Shown here piece by piece: positions 3,037-40,427 of a DNA stretch of 64,000 nt. The DNA is taken from the IMG/VR virus record IMGVR_UViG_3300033145_001841, positions 1 through 64,000 of that record. One strand, 5' to 3'. The position numbers were made by a program, and so were the translations under genes. The first letter of the stretch is position 1. Every line of letters begins with the position of its first letter. Under the pieces are notes generated by a model. The model searched no databases. It had not been told where the DNA came from and saw only the letters and a list, made by a program, of their open reading frames with translations. This DNA is from a virus.

Positions 3037-3405
3037 ATGAAAGCAATGATGATTGCATATCAAAAATGGATAATCCCGGCGCTGTTTCTGACGGTCACGG
3101 CGTGCGCCACGGCGTCGTTCTCCAAAAACACTTACGACACCCTTGCTACTTCAGCAGATGCATACAGGGCGTCAATGCAAAGCGCCGGAGAGCTTTATAA
3201 AAAGGGGATGATAACCGAGGCGCAGAAAACCCGAATCATCGTGTACGGGGAGGATTTCTGGTTGGCTTATCATACCGCGGTTGATGCCCTGGAGGCGTAC
3301 CAAATCACCAAGGATCGAGCGGGAGTCTACACCGCGCTTGCAACTTTATCAGCGGCTTTGGGGTCGTTTCTTGAGTATGCCCAATCGTTGAATGGAGGGT
3401 CGTGA
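3037..3405 (+). CDS. Small lipoprotein in lysis cassette
   Basis: 122 aa. The N-terminus is a signal peptide with a lipobox (LTVTAC, Cys about 22), so the protein should be lipid-anchored. The rest is helical with no recognised domain. It sits last in the lysis cassette, where many phages of Gram-negative hosts carry an outer-membrane spanin subunit, but it is long for an Rz1 and not proline-rich, so spanin function is only a possibility. Confidence 0.75.
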   Translation: MKAMMIAYQKWIIPALFLTVTACATASFSKNTYDTLATSADAYRASMQSAGELYKKGMITEAQKTRIIVYGEDFWLAYHTAVDALEAYQITKDRAGVYTALATLSAALGSFLEYAQSLNGGS

Positions 3406-3410
3406 TGGAA

Positions 3411-3623
3411 CTAGGCACTTGTTATAAACATGGTGGAAATATACTGAGAATATCCTTTGCAACCATCATTGCCCCTTAACGGAGTCTTTGGGTGTATTAA
3501 GCACCACAATCCGAAGGGATCGCAAGCGTCACTGTTTTTGCAAAAATTCGTTACATTGCTCAAATCGCAATCTTGAACCTTTCCGGCTTTTACATCGTGT
3601 TCTATGGTTTGTTGTGGGCCCAC
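3411..3623 (-). CDS. Small Cys-rich protein (tentative)
   Basis: 70 codons with a GTG start preceded at 5 bp by GGAGGG. Six cysteines lie in the second half, including a CDPFGLWC segment, which suggests metal binding or disulfides. It runs opposite to the lysis genes and reads away from attP. No family recognised. The good ribosome binding site is the main reason to keep it. Confidence 0.45.
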   Translation of the reverse strand: MGPQQTIEHDVKAGKVQDCDLSNVTNFCKNSDACDPFGLWCLIHPKTPLRGNDGCKGYSQYISTMFITSA

Positions 3624-3768
3624 CTCATCCCTCCATAAATCGTTAACATTTAGTTACCACCCGCATTACCGCCTAATAATTTCAACCACTTCCGTCTTAA
3701 CGTGCGGGTTCAAGTACCGCACTGGCCTATTATAAAGATGCCTGCACCCTTTCTTCTCTCATGCACTC

Positions 3769-4033
3769 CGGGGTAGTGTTTGGGGTAGTGACGTTTGACA
3801 ATCCGTGCAAAATATGACAAAATACCCCAAAAAATACCCCACTGTTTTTTGACTTTACGCTATCCATGCGGTTTTTAACGATATCCAGAGCGCCTTTTAG
3901 CCCTGTTACTTGCCTTTCACGCCTGCGACAGGGGTTCGAATCCCCTTGGGGACGCCAAATGATTTTAGGGGGTTAGCCGTTTATTGGTTGGCCCCCTTTT
4001 CATTTCGGGGTAGTGTTTGGGGTAGTGACGTTT
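3769..4033. other. Phage attachment site (attP) with integrase arm-type repeats
   Basis: The centre (about 3911-3957) is the 3-prime half of a tRNA-Glu gene: anticodon loop CTTTCAC, a T-arm with loop TTCGAAT, acceptor strand and encoded CCA. The 5-prime half of the tRNA is absent. Two identical 28-bp direct repeats at 3769-3796 and 4006-4033 flank it, each holding two GGGGTAGTG units, and an inverted version lies at 3821-3843. This is the layout expected of a P-arm / core / P-prime-arm attachment site for the adjacent tyrosine integrase. Because no full tRNA precedes the integrase gene, this is best read as attP and not attL or attR. Confidence 0.85.
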
Positions 4034-5039
4034 CGAAAGATAGATTTTCAACCGCATTTTTCACATCGTCCTGAACATTATAAATGTACCGATCCGTTGT
4101 GGTCGGAGCCGCATGGCCGAGCAGCTTCTGAATGGTCGGGATGGACTTTTTATATTTGTCGGCCAGCAGGGATGCAAACATTCTCCTGATTGCATGAAAG
4201 CCCACCCTACCCTTCTCGATCCCCGCCTTTTTACATAATCCGTGAATGAACCTTCTCCTGGTCGTGTACCCTGCCCCGTAGTGGCTGTGATTTGGCTCCC
4301 GGTTCTGGAAAACGAAGTCTGACATGGGTAATTTGTTTTTCCACTGGTCCTGCAAGCAACTAAACGCCATGTCGTTCATGGGCGCATATCGGTATTTCAT
4401 GGAACCATCCCTTGACTTTCTGCTCCCTAATCGGATTGTGCGCTTCTCAAAATTGATATCGTCCGTCCAGGTCAGCCGAAAGATTTCTGAGCGCCGGGCC
4501 CCTGTTGTCCCCAAAACCACCAAAAGGTTCCGACCGTGCCTAGTTGCAGCCAACATAATGCGAATGAACTCATCCTCAGTGAATACAGCCTGTGGTCCCC
4601 TGTTGGACGGGAGCTTATCAATGCCCACTACCGGGCTAACAGGCAGCTTGTGAAATTTCATAGCGTAATTGAAAAATGCCAGTAGTTCTTTCCTGGCTCG
4701 GTTAAACCGCGACGCGGGCGTGATCATCTTGAGGTAGTCCCACACGTCTTTCGTGGTAATATTCAGGATCGGCGTATCTGGTGGGTATTTACAAAGCAAT
4801 CTTTTCAAGTGCCTCCGCTTTGTTTTGTATGTGCTTTCGATGTACTTGATTTCGGCAAATGACAAATAATCGTTAATGACTTCCAGCAAAGAGCCCGTGT
4901 GGGTCTGCTTGAGATAAGAGCTTTTGGTCTCCCTTTCCCATGCGATTGCCTCTCTTTTTGTACGGAATGATTTTTGCGCGATGCGCTTCTGGCTGACTGT
5001 CACGACTCCGCGCCATCTTCCCCGATCCTTGTAAGGCAT
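3981..5039 (-). CDS. int: Tyrosine integrase
   Basis: 352 aa. An N-terminal AP2-like arm-binding domain (residues 1-50, rich in basic residues) is followed by a SAM-like core-binding domain and a C-terminal catalytic domain with the Arg of GTTGARRSE, the HAIRR box and the final GHAAPTTTDRY with the tyrosine nucleophile. It catalyses integration and excision at the neighbouring tRNA-Glu site. Its last codons overlap one of the arm-site repeats, so that DNA is both coding and, by inference, a binding site. Start is the ATG inside the 3-prime end of the upstream excisionase-like gene. Confidence 0.95.
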   Translation of the reverse strand: MPYKDRGRWRGVVTVSQKRIAQKSFRTKREAIAWERETKSSYLKQTHTGSLLEVINDYLSFAEIKYIESTYKTKRRHLKRLLCKYPPDTPILNITTKDVWDYLKMITPASRFNRARKELLAFFNYAMKFHKLPVSPVVGIDKLPSNRGPQAVFTEDEFIRIMLAATRHGRNLLVVLGTTGARRSEIFRLTWTDDINFEKRTIRLGSRKSRDGSMKYRYAPMNDMAFSCLQDQWKNKLPMSDFVFQNREPNHSHYGAGYTTRRRFIHGLCKKAGIEKGRVGFHAIRRMFASLLADKYKKSIPTIQKLLGHAAPTTTDRYIYNVQDDVKNAVENLSFETSLPQTLPRNEKGANQ

Positions 5040-5196
5040 CTTCCAGCCCCTCCCGTGTGAATATCCACGATCCGCCTATGCTCACCGCACCCAATTCGGC
5101 AGCGTTCTTATACACCCACCTAATAGATTTACGCAAGTGGGCAGCAACCTCTTTGGGTTTTAGGACAGGATTCATTTTTTCGGCGGCGGTTGTCAA
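4873..5196 (-). CDS. Excisionase-like helix-turn-helix protein
   Basis: 107 aa. Residues 12-60 (LKPKEVAAHLRKSIRWVYKN...) match the MerR-like helix-turn-helix of excisionases and plasmid-type DNA-binding proteins that bend DNA. The remaining 45 residues are read in a different frame over the integrase N-terminus. Overlap with int by 167 bp implies co-expression. Likely a recombination directionality factor, inferred from fold and location. Confidence 0.78.
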   Translation of the reverse strand: MTTAAEKMNPVLKPKEVAAHLRKSIRWVYKNAAELGAVSIGGSWIFTREGLEDALQGSGKMARSRDSQPEAHRAKIIPYKKRGNRMGKGDQKLLSQADPHGLFAGSH

Positions 5197-5245
5197 CTAT
5201 TTTTCCTCATTGACAATGGCGTTTATTTCGGTGTGAGTTGTCATT

Positions 5246-5554
5246 CTAAAATAGACTCTGCTGAATCGGCCTGTCCTGATCCATGATAATGATCCGGTCG
5301 TATCCCAATTTTGTTTTATGGCCACAAATAGTCTTATTCAGGCTCAAAAGCGTTTCTTCATCAAAATGACCCATCCAGAAGCGAGCGGTTCCGTCCGGAC
5401 GTGTCAGTGTTAAATGAATGTGTGGCGGTTGCTCCTGATCTATGCCCTTCATCCTGTCGCTATACAATTGGCAGATGCACCCGCGTTTAATCGACTTTAT
5501 CCTGTACGGCCCGCTGTAATTCGTTTTTATCAACATCCCAGGTTCGAGTTTCAT
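5246..5554 (-). CDS. Hypothetical protein
   Basis: 102 aa from the ATG preceded by AAGGGG (the upstream in-frame TTG lacks support). N-terminal GMLIKTNYSGPYRIKSI resembles a small SH3-like barrel strand pair, followed by PPHIHLTLTRPDGTARFWMGHFDEE. Found as a similar small protein in accessory regions of phages and islands; function unknown. Confidence 0.65.
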   Translation of the reverse strand: MKLEPGMLIKTNYSGPYRIKSIKRGCICQLYSDRMKGIDQEQPPHIHLTLTRPDGTARFWMGHFDEETLLSLNKTICGHKTKLGYDRIIIMDQDRPIQQSLF

Positions 5555-5564
5555 CAAGTTCCCC

Positions 5565-5909
5565 TTAAACTATCGGAAAGGCCTCGGCTTCACGGATTTT
5601 ACGATCTCGCTCTAACTTTAGATATCCAGCAATAGAATGAGCGTGGCCATCTATAAATTCCATGATTTGGTTTGACCTATCATGCCAGCAATCACACGAT
5701 GACACATATTCAACACCCTCGAATTTGACATAACAAACTGCATGATCGAGAGCGGTTGCCTTTGTATCCTTCTCAAGGCTTTTCAATTCACCTTCCTCAA
5801 AATCCCCATTTCCATTAAAATCGTAGAACTCACGTCCGCAGGCGCATGTCGCTGAGCATGATCCAATTCCTGGGGAAAAGGCCCTTTCGAAATTTTCATT
5901 TTTAGACAT
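5565..5909 (-). CDS. Hypothetical Cys-rich protein
   Basis: 114 aa. Paired cysteines (CSATCACGREF near residue 20 and SSCDCWHD near 75) suggest a zinc site. The ATG chosen has AAGGG just upstream; ten residues of extra frame before it lack a good binding site. Same direction as its neighbours, with 10 bp to the next gene. Confidence 0.65.
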   Translation of the reverse strand: MSKNENFERAFSPGIGSCSATCACGREFYDFNGNGDFEEGELKSLEKDTKATALDHAVCYVKFEGVEYVSSCDCWHDRSNQIMEFIDGHAHSIAGYLKLERDRKIREAEAFPIV

Positions 5910-5913
5910 CCCT

Positions 5914-6669
5914 TCACCCCTGTAATAATTTTTGACCACTATGTATCAGAGAAAGTAAAACATCCTTATCCTGGGTGAAATGCTGTATCTTTCGGCACAT
6001 CTCGGCCATATTCAGCATGAGATTATGGAAGAACATTGCCGCCTCATCTGAATATGGGATTTCTTTTGGGTCTCGCCCTAACGTGAAGGAGCACCAACTA
6101 TTTAAGAGGGACGCGGGACATTCGATGCTGAGATGGTCACCTTTTCCGTAATACATTTCATATTTTACTTTTTCGAGTTCCCCGTATCGGTATGTCCGCT
6201 TGTGTTTAGCTATTGCGCCTACGGTTAAACTGTATCCACCATTGGACGGCCTTGTCGCATGATGTCCGCCGTAGATGTCGTCCTTACCCATAGAGACCCA
6301 TTCCGCGCCATCACTGGCGTTTGGGTAAATGGTTCCATCTGATTTTTCCGCGAAAGAAACGTGTGATTCGATGTTGTACAGAATAACAATTTCATCTATG
6401 ATTTCTGGCTTAATATAAAGGGAAAGAGCATTATTTATGGCACTTATCAACCATTCGAATCCTTTGCTGCAATATTTTGTTTTGCCCCTGTAGTGATCCA
6501 TCCATATTCGATTGTTTTTTTTAGTTTCTTGTCTCAAGATGTCAGCAAGGTGATCTGGGACATAGCAATAGAAGTTCCCGTCAGCATCGACGCTTATGCT
6601 TTCCGTGAATTGTTCAGTTGCACCGGCCTCATTCCGAGCGGAAAAAGTATGTTTTTTAAACTGGGGCAT
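5914..6669 (-). CDS. Hypothetical protein
   Basis: 251 aa from the ATG at 6669, which has GGGAGA 6 bp upstream; a longer frame exists but overlaps the real upstream gene. No signal peptide or membrane segment. No domain recognised. Overlap of the codon range with the next gene's upstream region is minor, so the two are probably co-transcribed. Confidence 0.7.
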   Translation of the reverse strand: MPQFKKHTFSARNEAGATEQFTESISVDADGNFYCYVPDHLADILRQETKKNNRIWMDHYRGKTKYCSKGFEWLISAINNALSLYIKPEIIDEIVILYNIESHVSFAEKSDGTIYPNASDGAEWVSMGKDDIYGGHHATRPSNGGYSLTVGAIAKHKRTYRYGELEKVKYEMYYGKGDHLSIECPASLLNSWCSFTLGRDPKEIPYSDEAAMFFHNLMLNMAEMCRKIQHFTQDKDVLLSLIHSGQKLLQG

Positions 6670-22186: not shown

Positions 22187-22416
22187 TGGCGTGTTTCCCT
22201 CCTGTTCCCCCCGGATCCCCGAGGGGGGTCTCTGGTTTTCAGTTATTTCCAAACTTTTCAATCCTTTCTCATGGGCATGCCCTCCGAAGGTAAATATATT
22301 ATTGCTTGGGGTTAGTGGTTAATGGGTGGTCTGGCCGGTTGTGCTGTTAAGAGGTTGGTGAGCCGGTAGCAGGCATCGAACCTGCGACACTGTGCCACCG
22401 CGTCTTTTGTTGATTC

Positions 22417-22476
22417 TTGTCTTGTCTGGTCTTGTCATGTCCTGTCATGTCGGGTCATGTCTCGTCATGTCACGTC
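22417..22476 (-). repeat. Pentamer array A (12 units of NNGTC)
   Basis: 60 bp made only of 5-bp units ending GTC on the plus strand (GACNN in the transcript). All 12 keep GTC; the two leading bases vary (TT, TG, AT, CT, GG, TC, AC). Bounded on one side by a leader TTTTGTTGATTC shared with arrays B and C. Lies 9 bp after the stop of the 22486-22980 gene. Not a simple microsatellite, since two of five positions are free. Confidence 0.92.
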
Positions 22477-22485
22477 GCATTAAAA

Positions 22486-22980
22486 TTATCCCCCTGAAAA
22501 AGCCTCAAGGGTTTTCCCAATTGGCAATTCTTTTTGAACCTGCTGAACCCTGTTTTCAATCCGTTTGATGCTGCCAGGCTTCGTGAAAGCGTACATGGCC
22601 CCTAAAACGCTCATCGCGGTGTTGTGTTTGACCCTCGCTTCGTTTGGCATGGCGTCAAAATCGCTGATACTCGAAACTTGCCGGATGCCATTTCTTGCAG
22701 TCCTTCTGATGCGCTTAATGAAGTGTTCTGATGTAGAGACGGTTTCTTCTTGGGATAACCGCTTAAGCCCGACTCCCCGCACAGTGCCAAATGTGATTTG
22801 ATTATCCTTTTGGGCCATTCTTCGCGCCGTATGCAGATTCCCATACGCCACTGATTGAACGTCACGGTTGATGGTCTGGGAAAGATCCGGGTAGGTGATG
22901 GTTTCCCCTTCAGGAACTTCGATCAGTTTTTCATAAAGGGTGCGGCTGTCGATGCTGAGTTCTTCGATGCCTTTGGCCAT
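22486..22980 (-). CDS. Hypothetical protein flanked by pentamer arrays
   Basis: 164 aa from MAKGIEELS; AAAGGAG 8 bp upstream. The first 75 residues (LIEVPEGETITYPDLSQTINRDVQ...LHTARRMAQKDNQITFGTV) look like a winged-helix-type domain, then a helical C-terminus. The frame upstream runs into pentamer array B and is not used. Unknown function; position between arrays A and B is notable. Confidence 0.68.
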   Translation of the reverse strand: MAKGIEELSIDSRTLYEKLIEVPEGETITYPDLSQTINRDVQSVAYGNLHTARRMAQKDNQITFGTVRGVGLKRLSQEETVSTSEHFIKRIRRTARNGIRQVSSISDFDAMPNEARVKHNTAMSVLGAMYAFTKPGSIKRIENRVQQVQKELPIGKTLEAFSGG

Positions 22981-23002
22981 TTGTTGCTCCTTTTGTTGAT
23001 TC

Positions 23003-23122
23003 TTGTCGCGTCTTGTCCCGTCTTGTCGAGTCACGTCGAGTCAAGTCAAGTCGTGACTTGTCGAGTCGTGTCATGGCTTGTCGCTTCTAACCTCGTCGTG
23101 TCATGCCTGGTCAAGTCTGGTC
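23003..23122 (-). repeat. Pentamer array B (24 units of NNGTC)
   Basis: 120 bp, 24 phased 5-bp units; 19 end in GTC and the other five (units 11, 15, 17, 18 and 21) differ by one or two bases but keep the phase. It fills the whole gap between the stop codon of the RAMP-like gene (3 bp away) and the Shine-Dalgarno of the next gene. Same TTTTGTTGATTC leader as A and C. Confidence 0.92.
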
Positions 23123-23692: not shown

Positions 23693-23714
23693 TTGATCCT
23701 CCTTTTGTTGATTC

Positions 23715-23809
23715 TTGTCTTGTCTGGTCTTGTCAGGTCTGGTCGCGTCGCGTCTCGTCTCGTCAAGTCAAGTCAAGTCGGGTCAGGTCATGTCAAGTCA
23801 TGTTTAGTC
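23715..23809 (-). repeat. Pentamer array C (19 units of NNGTC)
   Basis: 95 bp, 19 phased units, 18 ending GTC. Same leader next to the Shine-Dalgarno of the RAMP-like gene, so the array would be in that gene's 5-prime UTR or promoter region. Decays into ATGTT, TAGTC and AT-rich DNA at its far end. Confidence 0.92.
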
Positions 23810-28278: not shown

Positions 28279-28366
28279 ATACCGAGGGCATATTCAGGGC
28301 ATACCGAGGGCATATTCAGGGCATACCGAGGGCATATTCAGGGCATACCGAGGGCATATTCAGGGC
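28279..28366 (+). repeat. Four 22-bp direct repeats (eight 11-bp half units) over a promoter
   Basis: Exact tandem repeats of ATACCGAGGGC followed by ATATTCAGGGC. Half units differ in only four positions and have the period of a DNA turn, so a protein could bind one face. A -35-like TTGACT at 28266 places the array in the -10 region. Likely operator of the ribbon-helix-helix protein just upstream, controlling the replication genes; an origin-type iteron role is the alternative. Confidence 0.85.
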
Positions 28367-28424
28367 ATACTTAGGTGTACCTGAATAATTACAACCATTT
28401 ATTCACATCTTTGGCGAGGGTCTG

Positions 28425-34687: not shown

Positions 34688-35410
34688 ATGGCGAAAACAA
34701 TAAAAAGTTACACGATAAAAGTGGTGGGGGAAGCTGAAAGCCCCTTCCGTGGTGCTGTCCCGGAATCAATTGAATCTCTCATTAAGAAGCCGTCAAAAGA
34801 CGTGGCAAGCCTGATCTACCAGGCGGTCAAAGCTCAAGTTGAAATGTGTACCCAGGCGGGGGATGTTGCGGGTGCATGGGAAGCGATTAAGAAATATCAG
34901 TCAGAGCAATTTCAGTATTCATGTCCGTTAAATACATTCAAACGAGATCATCAAAATGGTGAGCGTCCATATCAAGGAGCACATACGGTTTTCGGTGCTT
35001 TTCGTGATGGTGCTCGGTTTATCTTCCCTGAATTTTTCTATGAAAAAGGCATTACAGGTGGAACAAAACGGCCCTCAAAGACACACCTGCGAAAGTTCGT
35101 CATTGTCCGGCCCAATCATATCTTTTTTTACAGGCCGGATTTAGCAGGTGAAATTATTACGGAGCCGGATTCTGTTGAAGGCCAACAGCCGGTTGCTGAT
35201 GTCAAGGGGTTCGCCCGGTATGAAGTAATCAACAGCCCTTTTCAGTTCCAGTTCCAAATATCAGTCAACCCCAGGGGCATGTACGAGAAGTTTTTGAGCA
35301 ACCAGGATAAGGCGCTTGACGCCTTACACCAGGGGGTTAATCATGGCTTGGGGGCTGGCAGGAGCGCTGGATATGGCATGTGGAAGATCGTTAGCGCGGA
35401 AATATTATAG
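34688..35410 (+). CDS. RAMP-like phage protein 2
   Basis: 240 aa with GAGGAG upstream. N-terminal strand KSYTIKVVGEAESPFRG, middle with DHQNGERPYQGAHTVFGAF, and C-terminal GVNHGLGAGRSAGYGMWKI, a textbook Gly-rich loop plus last strand of RAMP (Cas5/6/7) proteins. Differs from RAMP-like protein 1 in length but shares the outline. Its stop codon is followed after 4 bp by the long 5-nt-periodic array. No Cas1, Cas2 or CRISPR repeats are present. Fold assignment is an inference. Confidence 0.7.
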   Translation: MAKTIKSYTIKVVGEAESPFRGAVPESIESLIKKPSKDVASLIYQAVKAQVEMCTQAGDVAGAWEAIKKYQSEQFQYSCPLNTFKRDHQNGERPYQGAHTVFGAFRDGARFIFPEFFYEKGITGGTKRPSKTHLRKFVIVRPNHIFFYRPDLAGEIITEPDSVEGQQPVADVKGFARYEVINSPFQFQFQISVNPRGMYEKFLSNQDKALDALHQGVNHGLGAGRSAGYGMWKIVSAEIL

Positions 35411-35414
35411 GTTT

Positions 35415-36100
35415 TTCGTTGTGTGCCATATTATTTGACTTAATTGGATACCGTGCAATAGAATAAGGTCATATATGTCTTAAAGGTATAATGAAATAGG
35501 GTGGTGTAGAATAATTAGCTTGCTGTTTTTTTCCATTGTGTCCATTGGGGTTTCATTAGGTTCTTAATATAGCATCTTGTTTTGTCCGTTGAGTTCCCGT
35601 GCCGTGTAGTGGCGTGCGATTTAATAATCATCACTTCACATACGATAACATAAAGTGCGATGCAGTGGCGTTACATGGTTTCATATCATACCATCGCGTT
35701 CCATAGGTAATGCGTTGTTGTATGGTCCTATGCAATACCGTCATTTCGGTTCATATCCGGTTCTGTAAACATGCGGTTATATGCTATGATGATGCAAGGT
35801 CAACGATGGAATTTTTTGCTGTTTGGCCTCGTACGGTTGGGTTGCGCGAAATAACATAGGATCTGATGCTGTATATAGTGTTCTTTCAGTTGCAATTTGA
35901 TTAGGTGCCATCCCATGCGATATGATAAAATTTCATTGCCTTTGCAAAATGGTGTTTTATTGGTTCCAATCTTGTGGTATACAGTGCGATGCAATACTTA
36001 TTTAGTTCGATGTTCTTCAACTCGATTCGATATGGTAAATATTTCAATGCGAAAACATATGATTCCATGTGGTCGCCTCATGTTCGGTACGATGCAGTGC
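35415..36100 (+). repeat. Non-coding array with RT dinucleotide every 5 nt (NNNRT units)
   Basis: About 690 bp with no convincing gene. GT or AT recurs at exactly 5-nt spacing in long runs: 35419-35474 (11 of 12 positions), 35487-35512, 35596-35625, 35642-35676, 35892-35936 (nine in a row), 35946-35995 and 36058-36098. The phase slips by a few bases between runs. The other three bases of each unit are free. Starts 4 bp after the RAMP-like gene stop. Confidence 0.82.
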
Positions 36101-36171
36101 TTACACAAAATAAAATAGAGCTGTTCCGATGTAAGCGAATTCTAAAACTTTCACGGAAAGGGGGTGAGAAT

Positions 36172-36399
36172 ATGAGTGAAGTCAGAGAAATCATGATCGA
36201 AACCATGAAAGGCGTTCGTGACGGTAGTTGCCCACTGGATACCGCAAAGGAAATCCATCTGGCTGGCCACAGGGCCGTCATGGATGTTTACGCAGGTTGT
36301 AAACAAAAACGTATGGGGATTCAAGCAAAAGTCACATTTAAAGCACTGGAAGCCATGAGGCAGGTAAAATCCAATAAAGATGAGATGCAAAAAATATAG
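36172..36399 (+). CDS. Small hypothetical protein between periodic arrays
   Basis: 75 aa from MSEVREIMIETMKGV with AAGGGGGTGA upstream. Pattern DGSCPLDTAKEIHLAGHRAVMDVYAG...KVTFKALEAMRQ is like small phage proteins of unknown function. Array units lie on both sides of it (ending about 36100, resuming at 36419). Confidence 0.68.
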   Translation: MSEVREIMIETMKGVRDGSCPLDTAKEIHLAGHRAVMDVYAGCKQKRMGIQAKVTFKALEAMRQVKSNKDEMQKI

Positions 36400-36418
36400 C
36401 ATCATTTTTGATTTTGTT

Positions 36419-36458
36419 TCGTGTTGTGGGATAACATATGATCGGATATCATGACATG
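36419..36458 (+). repeat. Second NNNRT block (eight units)
   Basis: Eight consecutive 5-nt units each ending GT or AT, with no break in phase. Same rule as the array at 35415-36100, on the other side of the small gene. Confidence 0.8.
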
Positions 36459-36554
36459 ATTCGAGGATGGGGTGGTGCCATGGGTAAAATTGACCCATCA
36501 GCTAACAAGATGTTGGTGTTGTTCCCACGGGGGTGGGGATGAGTCGATGGCCCT

Positions 36555-36884: not shown

Positions 36885-37080
36885 GCCGTGGCATAATCCA
36901 CGGCCCGGATTAGAAAGCCGGAATACTCGTAAGGTGCGCAAGCGCCTAAACCATAGAGCGCTTTTTTTATGCTCTGTGAACCCTTGGCGGGTTGTGCGCG
37001 GGAGCCTTCGGGCTCGCCGGTTTCCTTACGGGCCGGTCTTTCTAACCGTGTGCATCCCGCCTTTTTTTATTAGAAAGAAG
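36885..37080 (+). ncRNA. C4-like antisense RNA leader of the antirepressor gene
   Basis: About 195 nt of GC-rich, hairpin-forming sequence between a strong promoter and the AntA-type gene, in the place of C4 antisense RNA of P1, P7 and N15 phages. It includes GCGCAAGCGCCTAAACC, a GAGCC-TTCG-GGCTC hairpin and CCTTACG (37023-37029), which is complementary to CGTAAGG at the Shine-Dalgarno of the antirepressor (37107-37113). Antisense control of ant translation is the inferred role. Confidence 0.55.
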
Positions 37081-37123: not shown

Positions 37124-37960
37124 ATGAACAAACCCACCAGCCCGTCCACCGATCTTATCCCCATCAACTCGAATATGGGAGGCAAGCGCACGGTCAATGC
37201 GCGAGATTTGCATGAATTCCTGGAATCCAAGCAAGACTTTTCCACATGGATCAAGAAGCGAGTCAAACAATACGGCTTTCTCGAAAATCTTGACTTTCTC
37301 ATTATCCCAAGTGCTCCACAAAAAAATGGAGCGCTAAAATCAACAACTTACGGACAGTCCCGAATCGATTACCACCTAACCATGGACATGGCCAAAGAGC
37401 TGTCCATGGTCGAGCGAACAGAGAAAGGACGTCAGGCCAGACGGTATTTCATCCAATGTGAGAAAATCGCCCGTGGTCAGGCCCAGCCCCTTGCCGCTCC
37501 AACCCCGGCACAGATCCCCGCCAAAATCGAAACCCTCACCCCGGTCCAGTGGACCGAAGTCAAAAAACTGGTCTTAGGAAAAGCTCAGCGAAATGTAGGC
37601 GATAAAAAACCGACCAAAAACGATTACATCAAAATCTACCGGTCCATCAAGGAAGAATTTCAGGTTGCCAAAAGCTCAGACGTGCCACAGACACGGTTCA
37701 ACGAGCTGCGGGCCTTTCTCGGAGACGCATGGAGCGTAGTGCCCCTTGAGGATGAGGACATCTCAAACGCCTACCTGTACGTGCTGAAACAGGACGCCGA
37801 GCATGCTGTCGGATATATAATGGAGCGTATGAACAGCATCATGACCGAAATGCTGAATATTTCAAATGCGGTTGGCGTGGTGTTCCCGGAAGAGCTGAAG
37901 GCGCAAGGCAACCGTGGCTTCGTGCCCGAACGCGTGATGACGGAAGGGGGTGTGTTATGA
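37124..37960 (+). CDS. AntA/AntB-type antirepressor
   Basis: 278 aa. KRTVNARDLHEFLESKQDFSTWIKKRVKQYGFLENLDFLI (about 20-60) is the AntA domain signature, followed by GQSRIDYHLTMDMAKELSMVERTEKGRQARRYFIQCEK. The C-terminal half is a separate helical domain of unknown type. Antirepressors bind the phage repressor to trigger lytic growth. AAGGAGG upstream lies in the region complementary to the C4-like leader. Confidence 0.9.
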   Translation: MNKPTSPSTDLIPINSNMGGKRTVNARDLHEFLESKQDFSTWIKKRVKQYGFLENLDFLIIPSAPQKNGALKSTTYGQSRIDYHLTMDMAKELSMVERTEKGRQARRYFIQCEKIARGQAQPLAAPTPAQIPAKIETLTPVQWTEVKKLVLGKAQRNVGDKKPTKNDYIKIYRSIKEEFQVAKSSDVPQTRFNELRAFLGDAWSVVPLEDEDISNAYLYVLKQDAEHAVGYIMERMNSIMTEMLNISNAVGVVFPEELKAQGNRGFVPERVMTEGGVL

Positions 37961-39190: not shown

Positions 39191-40057
39191 TCATTTCCAC
39201 CCCATCCCAACTCTAATTCTTTTACGCAAAACATCAACAGGACAATGCAAATATACATTCCGGATGGTATCTGCTGAATCCCCAAGCAGGACCGCCACGT
39301 CTTCTATTTTTACCCCTCCTATAAAGAATAAATAAGAAGCCGTATAATGTCTGAAAGTGTGCGCGCCTCTTCCGTCCCTCCCGTTCTTAAACCCAAGGTC
39401 TTTCAGCATCCCGTTGACAATTTCCTGGACACGGCCGACGTCCGGGAATGTTTTACTCAGCCATGCTTTTTTCCCGACCTCGGATTGTCGTGCCACCATC
39501 AGCTTGTGGGTCTCCTTCGAAAAGAACGCCGGTCGCGGCTCAGTTTTCGAGTCAGAAAGAAACAGCGTGCCGGCCGCCATGTCAATATCCGTCCCCCGCA
39601 AAACAGCCAGCTCCCTTGCCCGGCAACCGGTTTCGATGAGAAGCGCGGTTATCAACCTGTCCCGCGTTGGGTTTGCGCTCCTGGGGAAGAAATAGGCCCG
39701 GCACTGCGCGATCTCGTCTTGAGACAGCCAACGCCTTGCATGTTTCAACTTGAAGGCCTTCTTGCCCTTGTTGCTGATCGAGAAGGTGTATTGCGATGGA
39801 CGCCCCGCCCACTTTAGGAATATTTTAATGCCGGTGAATTTCTGGTAAATGGTTTGGTCGGAAATTTTCCGCGCCTTGAGCGCCTTGGCCAGGGCGGGCA
39901 TATGCGATTCGATGTGTCTGACTTCCGTGATGCCGCTGGACGCTTCACAGAATTTGCGAAGGTCATTCAGGCTGATGGTGTATCCTTCGCGGGTGGTGGG
40001 GGCAAGGCTCTGCACCTTTTGGCTGTTCAGGTATTCATTGATCTTCTCCTTTATCAT
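39191..40057 (-). CDS. Second tyrosine recombinase
   Basis: 288 aa from MIKEKINEYL with AAGGAGG upstream. N-terminal SAM-like core-binding domain, then IETGCRARELAVL (catalytic Arg), HTFRHYTASYL (HxxR) and LLGDSADTIRNVYLH (Tyr). Asp replaces the usual His in the LLGH box. XerC/D-like size. It differs from int at attP. Could resolve dimers or be the integrase of an inserted element covering 38.6-47 kb. Confidence 0.88.
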   Translation of the reverse strand: MIKEKINEYLNSQKVQSLAPTTREGYTISLNDLRKFCEASSGITEVRHIESHMPALAKALKARKISDQTIYQKFTGIKIFLKWAGRPSQYTFSISNKGKKAFKLKHARRWLSQDEIAQCRAYFFPRSANPTRDRLITALLIETGCRARELAVLRGTDIDMAAGTLFLSDSKTEPRPAFFSKETHKLMVARQSEVGKKAWLSKTFPDVGRVQEIVNGMLKDLGFKNGRDGRGAHTFRHYTASYLFFIGGVKIEDVAVLLGDSADTIRNVYLHCPVDVLRKRIRVGMGWK

Positions 40058-40076
40058 TTGATCCTCCTTCAGGCGT

Positions 40077-40427
40077 TCACGACAGCCTTTTATCTTTCCC
40101 CCTGTCGCTCCAATCGCCTTCCCTGATGAACCTGGCAATGTTTTTCACCTTCGCTTGGCATGTCAGGCACAGGTGCGTATCTTCGTTGAACCCGAATTCA
40201 TTCCCGTCGCATTTGGAACAGAAGTAACATTTACTCTGGTTCGCTTGTTTGTAAAGGCTGTCAATCGGCTCGAAAAAACCTCCATGGTCCCTTCCCGCAA
40301 GGCCGTCTTCAACGTCAGACGCGACCAGATTTAGTATGAAATGCAGGATTACTTTCTGCTGTTCCGGTTGTAGTGAGTCCATTACCCGCTTTCCTGCTCT
40401 CATTACTGTTTCGGTTGCTTTTTTCAT
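40077..40427 (-). CDS. Hypothetical zinc-ribbon protein
   Basis: 116 aa from MKKATETVMRAGKRV; AAAGGAGA upstream. Helical start, then SKCYFCSKCDGNEFGFNEDTHLCLTCQAK, a four-Cys zinc ribbon. Role unknown. Confidence 0.7.
   Translation of the reverse strand: MKKATETVMRAGKRVMDSLQPEQQKVILHFILNLVASDVEDGLAGRDHGGFFEPIDSLYKQANQSKCYFCSKCDGNEFGFNEDTHLCLTCQAKVKNIARFIREGDWSDRGKDKRLS

Follow-up and report, generated by a model that had tools for sequence, protein, structure and literature searches.

A GAC-scaffold VIPR system and a probable second, divergent module of the same kind in one virus record

VIPR, which combines the protein Vipr with Vap proteins and vrRNA, is the closest described relative of the elements considered here, and its preprint presents it as an RNA-guided weapon between phages (bioRxiv 2026, PMC13142463, doi 10.64898/2026.04.26.720920). 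Its model phage is Escherichia phage SUSP1, with a Vipr structure deposited as PDB 36pp; in SUSP1, RNA co-purifies with Vipr, and the complex, which skips one base when it binds double-stranded DNA, silences transcription (PMC13142463). In the same preprint, vrRNA is given as GGY/NN or "a related consensus", with 9–16 repeats, about 100 nt and an invariable structured 3' tail, and seven VIPR types, staggered arrays and the accessory genes vap1–6 are named (PMC13142463). Here we describe a 64,000-nt stretch of viral DNA (positions 1 to 64,000 of IMG/VR virus record IMGVR_UViG_3300033145_001841; hereafter the window, to which all coordinates refer unless another sequence is named) that carries two genes, RAMP1 and RAMP2, each beside arrays with a 5-nt period. 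An earlier note on this DNA had called both genes RAMP-like and had known of no described system of this kind, a statement that the VIPR preprint overturns (PMC13142463). Our reading, to which we give a probability of roughly 0.78, is that this uncultivated phage carries two modules for RNA-guided interference of the VIPR kind, of which module 1 lies around RAMP2 and module 2, the divergent one, around RAMP1 (Table 1).

Table 1. Features of the two modules in the window
Feature	Position	Strand	Description or basis
RAMP2 = Vipr (phrog_4652), 188 aa	23126..23692	-	SUSP1 Vipr profile match, Cas7-like predicted fold
Vap1-type accessory protein (phrog_5926-like)	22486..22980	-	family profile matches SUSP1 and LESphi2 proteins
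GAC/NN array 1, ~19 units, upstream of vipr	23715..23809	-	direct reading
GAC/NN array 2, ~24 units, between vipr and vap	23003..23122	-	direct reading
GAC/NN array 3, 12 units, downstream of vap	22417..22476	-	direct reading
Constant 18-nt array 3' end GACAAGAATCAACAAAAG	23702..23719; identical 22990–23007, 22404–22421	-	direct reading
RAMP1, divergent RAMP-like protein, 240 aa	34688..35410	+	C-terminal Gly-rich loop GLGAGRSAGYG, weak RAMP/Cas6 profile matches
Array A, main block	35415..36099	+	~135 pentanucleotide units N-D-T/NN, ~12 phase blocks
Small gene, candidate accessory	36172..36399 (GTG at 36097 may be true start)	+	conserved in contigs L110–L112
Array A, second block	36398..36465	+	~13 units, hidden Markov model parse; beyond small gene

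The GAC/NN arrays and their proteins

Module 1 (22.4–23.8 kb), made up of three GAC/NN arrays, Vipr and Vap1, is a VIPR system with a GAC scaffold, and RAMP2 is its Vipr. The family profile of RAMP2 matched SUSP1 Vipr (PDB 36pp) with an E value of 3.9e-15, the AlphaFold model of RAMP2 reached a predicted local distance difference test (pLDDT) score of 96, and Foldseek placed it with type VII Cas7, Csm3 and gRAMP (probability 1.0; E 8e-8 for type VII Cas7/Csm3; TM-score about 0.55), so that for this gene the RAMP-like assignment stands on both predicted fold and homology to the solved Vipr. The family profile of the neighbouring gene matched SUSP1 ALH47068.1 (E 1e-5) and LESphi2 P21_8 (E 3e-6). 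As in SUSP1, homologous Vipr and Vap1 are phage-borne, arrays flank the genes on both sides, and the arrays are pentanucleotide with three fixed and two hypervariable bases; unlike in SUSP1, the fixed triplet is GAC in place of GGY. The arrays have 12–24 units each. By its predicted fold, RAMP2 also resembles the Cas7/Csm3 backbone RAMPs of class 1 CRISPR types III and VII, which likewise bind RNA periodically, whereas module 1 has a single small gene of this sort and a 5-nt rather than a 6-nt step. No CRISPR-type tandem-repeat array was found near either module, and PADLOC, run on RAMP1, RAMP2 and Vap1, matched neither RAMP2 nor Vap1 and reported for RAMP1 a weak similarity to Cas6 only.

The 5-nt signal of the GAC arrays is stronger than that of the long array behind RAMP1 (array A), with chi-square values of up to 155 per 150 nt against a mean of 12, and the NN positions of all three arrays are hypervariable. 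The earlier note had placed a 5-nt array after RAMP2; the GAC arrays do lie there, but on the minus strand, which carries the genes, they stand on both sides of RAMP2, so that "after" describes only part of the arrangement. The constant 3' end GACAAGAATCAACAAAAG adjoins the next start codon at two arrays and a tRNA-3'-end-like sequence at the third. This latter sequence, at 22345–22405 on the minus strand (GCAGGTTCGATGCCTGC ... CACCA) right after array 3, is a possible attachment site; ARAGORN found no complete tRNA there.

Viral contigs were scanned with the pattern (GACNN)8GAC, which gave 108 stretches, with diverse arrays in 66 loci; this locus search used the DNA pattern alone and no protein, and the locus counts include redundant contigs. 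The two commonest genes behind these arrays are relatives of RAMP2 and of its neighbour, Vipr relatives being detected by iterated hidden Markov model (HMM) searches in 49 of the 66 loci and Vap1-like genes in 35, while 36 of 38 aligned RAMP2-family members matched phrog_4652, a family of unknown function. RAMP2 relatives also occur in Felixounavirus, SUSP1 and Pseudomonas LESphi2, with GGT or GGC arrays. When Vipr relatives were collected by protein alone, they proved to have 5-nt arrays built on GAC, GGC, GTC, GTT, AGT or GGT, with a few weak signals. The SUSP1 locus itself has one array upstream of the genes and several blocks downstream, which fits the preprint's count of one vrRNA upstream and three downstream (PMC13142463). 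Among bacterial genome contigs with the GAC pattern, seven loci passed the diversity filter and most matches were other repeats. Two side observations were made in this survey. In the classical coliphage wV8, the GenBank repeat_region "DR_4" (3202–3259 and 4595–4652), deposited without explanation, corresponds to GGT/NN arrays around gp95/gp94. In addition, the arrays of nine loci (L026, L054, L009, L074, L022, L002, L083, L043 and L020) read GTC on the vipr sense strand and GAC on the opposite one, and are either true GTC scaffolds or antisense arrays.

Periodic triplets in RNA are also bound by TRAP (trp RNA-binding attenuation protein), which recognizes (G/U)AG triplets 2–3 nt apart, a step of about 5 nt, and the present arrays resemble TRAP sites in having triplets spaced by unconserved bases at about that step. 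Regulation of this type, in which a protein on periodic leader-RNA triplets controls downstream translation or termination and has no target, would suit the two GAC arrays that lie just upstream of start codons. We regard it as very improbable, because the variable bases carry a codon-position signature (see below) that is unexpected for free spacers, array A greatly exceeds the length that a leader requires, and TRAP itself differs in its unrelated fold, fixed triplet number and lack of guide information. The VIPR of SUSP1, moreover, has been shown to be RNA-guided (PMC13142463).

RAMP1, array A and their relatives

Module 2 (34.7–36.5 kb) comprises RAMP1, array A as a long hypervariable pentanucleotide array, and the small gene. 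The recurrence of AT or GT every 5 nt, which the earlier note had seen behind RAMP1 and again beyond the small gene, was confirmed: A/G-T dinucleotides in array A formed 82 pairs at lag 5, where 31.7±4.8 were expected (z 10.5; matched by 0 of 500 dinucleotide-preserving shuffles), pairs at lag 10 numbered 75 (z 9.0), those at lags 4, 6, 8 and 9 were depleted relative to the shuffles, and about 13 further units follow the small gene. An HMM with a period of 5, fitted to array A together with its relative, gained 176 nats over a memoryless model, compared with at most 6 for periods 3, 4, 6 and 7. Array A is therefore not a product of chance. In the fitted model the unit reads D(A.49, G.33, T.16, C.02)-T(.92)-N-N-N. 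Its phase slips about every 6–20 units, which divides the array into about a dozen blocks, and the repeat units show no sequence identity to one another. Phase slips and a degenerate scaffold might also be expected of a decaying satellite or of a compositional artefact, an explanation that we find scarcely credible given a scaffold T at 92% preceded by C in only 2%, units without mutual identity, the same profile in an independent sequence, and a remote relative with the same gene-array arrangement, the last two of which are described in the following paragraphs.

RAMP1 ends in a Gly-rich loop, as had been noted before, and is RAMP-like by weak but concordant sequence evidence: it matches Pfam RAMPs (PF03787) over residues 98–230 with E 0.037, below the cut-off, and the PADLOC similarity to Cas6 has E 0.021 for RAMP1 and 0.0058 for its relative. 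That relative, 86% identical, is present on three contigs (L110–L112). Its gene is followed by about 490 nt that can be aligned to array A in one 36-nt stretch only, and yet in L110 this sequence keeps the same D-T rhythm (z 7.7) and leads to the same small gene, while the second block of array A is missing. With a shared rhythm, an unrelated sequence and a gene 86% identical, the content of the array turns over and its grammar is kept. In two guides that are homologous between the window and L110, differences fall mostly at the third N and at D, and the second N and T never differ; therefore, we prefer N-D-T/NN as the unit of array A, which would be the published xxY/NN scaffold in a relaxed form. 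The small gene had no family match in Pfam, PHROG or NCBIfam. A conserved hairpin, GCTTACA...TGTAAGC, was considered as a 3' tail of array A and dropped, because in the relative the N-terminus of the small gene accounts for the conserved sequence. Rfam gave no match at any of the arrays.

More distant relatives of RAMP1 connect it with arrays a second time. A second RAMP-like open reading frame (ORF) in locus L248, lying amid the arrays of a GGC/NN VIPR locus and weakly matching Pfam RAMPs and Cas6_C, aligns with RAMP1 at a score 9.6 standard deviations above shuffles and shares 32% identity with WWT39994.1 from Microcystis phage Mae-JY09. When a profile was built from these two proteins, RAMP1 ranked first of 10,636 ORFs once the training sequences were set aside (E 0.027; the next unrelated one at 1.9). 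In Mae-JY09, the RAMP1-family gene is directly followed by about 400 nt with a 5-nt period (lag-5 z 5.4) and an S-M-C/NN scaffold, the strongest 5-nt signal in the complete genome, and neither Vipr nor Vap1 was found in that genome by profile. The claim that the arrays belong to the RAMP genes was borne out. The earlier note had named homologous genes without such arrays as a refutation, and this did not come about: when relatives of either protein were collected from protein sequence only, nearly all of them had a 5-nt array. No match to RAMP1 turned up in phages of GenBank, in plasmids or in 676 genomes from two phyla around Deltaproteobacteria metagenome-assembled genomes. As separate observations, L248 at 3343–5710 holds Vap, Vipr and the RAMP1-like gene with GGC/NN arrays between them, so that both RAMP families stand side by side; in Mae-JY09, most phase slips of the array region (5724–6130) are marked by a CGAC(T/A)-like junction, which recurs at intervals of roughly 30–50 nt, and the region is followed by a perfect hairpin, GAACTTCCCCCTGCGCAGGGGGAAGTTC.

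RAMP1 might nevertheless not be the partner of array A, if Vipr alone used both array types and RAMP1 were a Cas6-like processing enzyme or an accessory. Both modules do occur in one phage, Vipr and a RAMP1-like gene share the L248 locus, and the C-terminal match to Cas6 models, though weak, points the same way. We consider this unlikely, as Mae-JY09 pairs a RAMP1-family gene with an array in a genome without Vipr or Vap1 by profile, the scaffolds of the two modules are unlike (GAC against NDT), and L110–L112 carry no Vipr, though these contigs are short.

Reading of the variable bases

The NN pairs of the GAC arrays were compared with codon composition. Over 1544 units, the log-likelihood was −4236.8 for codon positions 1–2, −4258.9 for positions 2–3 and −4423.6 for positions 3–1, and under the 1–2 fit the pairs appear to be read from either strand, with shares of 0.4 sense and 0.6 antisense; TA is depleted to 0.58 of expectation. 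This fit is consistent with the published rule, by which one wobble base is skipped, and would extend that rule, by composition alone, to the GAC clade. In array A, likewise, N1N2 fit codon positions 1–2, in the antisense orientation only (sense share 0.00, interval 0–0.25, estimated by composition from 221 units in two related arrays; 0–0.48 for the window array alone), and a codon mixture described the bases better than independent bases did (matched by 0 of 300 simulations). A reading of NNN as sense codons was rejected. A contiguous reading without a skip competes with the one-base skip, since the full antisense codon fits well; linkage between units is weak (z 1.8). The 5-nt period shared by both modules is meaningful, as the earlier note had proposed, and the variable bases appear to carry guide information, so that the arrays would be more than the substrates for coating which that note had seen in them.

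The strand bias of array A raises the possibility that it targets mRNA, or the coding strand only, and not double-stranded DNA. The sense share of 0.00 (0–0.25), compared with the 0.4/0.6 mixture of the GAC arrays, would follow from such targeting; with a compositional estimate from 221 units of two related arrays and an interval that widens to 0–0.48 for the window array, we hold this as tentative and rather unlikely.

One guide common to the window and L110 decodes, in the same antisense frame, to (W)NPG(Q/R)EKAG, with a stop codon in the window copy where W stands. A degenerate scan for this peptide returned ten contigs (about six distinct sequences), all of them phage TOPRIM primases with a stretch like NGDAWNPGEEKAGNAA; because the scan pattern forces the peptide, the information lies in all matches being one conserved replication protein. 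The WNPG(R/Q)EKAG motif does not occur in the window itself.

Two proposed interference modules in one phage

By analogy with the VIPR of SUSP1, each array would be transcribed into RNA along which RAMP subunits polymerise, one per 5 nt, and array RNA coated by its RAMP is very probably what is made. The subunits would grip the fixed scaffold, which is GAC for module 1 and N-D-T for module 2, and leave two variable bases exposed, which might pair with a target in steps of two bases followed by one skipped, normally at the codon wobble position; binding would then silence genes of competing phages or prophages. For module 2, we infer expression, binding, target and strand from this analogy. Module 2 is like SUSP1 VIPR in its RAMP-like gene followed by a pentanucleotide array, its small second gene and its codon-position signature, and what is new in it, namely another protein family, a relaxed scaffold, a far longer array and an antisense bias, may make it a new version of VIPR. 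As the preprint names seven types, "a related consensus" and staggered arrays (PMC13142463), RAMP1 may also belong to one of the published types.

Several results weigh against this reading of module 2. The scaffold is N-D-T and not GGY, array A is one phase-slipping array of about 690 nt and about 135 units as opposed to vrRNAs of 9–16 units, and no 3' tail was found for it within the 64-kb window. AlphaFold, run with two distinct sequences, gave RAMP1 a pLDDT of 37, and the model was not used; profile comparisons detected no kinship of RAMP1 to the SUSP1-clade Vipr profile (hhalign probability 2.7%, no hmmsearch match). With regard to targets, neither module had any above chance at skips of 0–3 in 2.0–2.2 Mb of collected loci, IMG/VR contained no exact match to one of the decoded GAC guides, and a BLAST comparison of decoded array A with phages yielded nothing credible. 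The primase matches share 20–22 of 30 bases with the guide, in a scan with a peptide fixed by pattern construction and no null scan. A more far-reaching version, which we think possible yet improbable, is that RAMP1 founds a repeat-guided RAMP lineage outside the described VIPR types, with a nearly free scaffold (only pyrimidine and not-C fixed), a single RNA of about 135 units and about a dozen guides antisense to coding sequence, which would silence mRNA or the coding strand of replication genes in competing phages.

The surroundings of the modules were also inspected. A C4 antisense RNA (Rfam RF01695, 62.5 bits) lies at 36980–37067, just upstream of an AntA antirepressor gene (37124–37960), a P1/P7-like immunity arrangement that directly adjoins the RAMP1 module. 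The record contains two integrase genes (3981–5039 and 39191–40138), perhaps because two elements are present or because a phage harbours another element, and a perfect 22-bp repeat in 4.2 copies (28279–28370), iteron-like and ahead of genes leading to a primase-helicase, is a candidate replication origin.

VIPR has been proposed as the ancestor of CRISPR. If our reading is true, another RAMP family, which has a relaxed pentanucleotide code of its own, stands beside an ordinary Vipr in this phage and alone in Mae-JY09, which would separate the fixed parts of the code (the 5-nt step and the scaffold pyrimidine) from those free to drift, and would bear on whether RNA as well as DNA targeting predates CRISPR. 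The variety of triplets among Vipr relatives (GAC, GTC, GGC, GGT, GTT and AGT) offers a data set from which the scaffold-reading residues could be identified, and Mae-JY09, a phage of a cultured host, makes the idea of module 2 directly testable.
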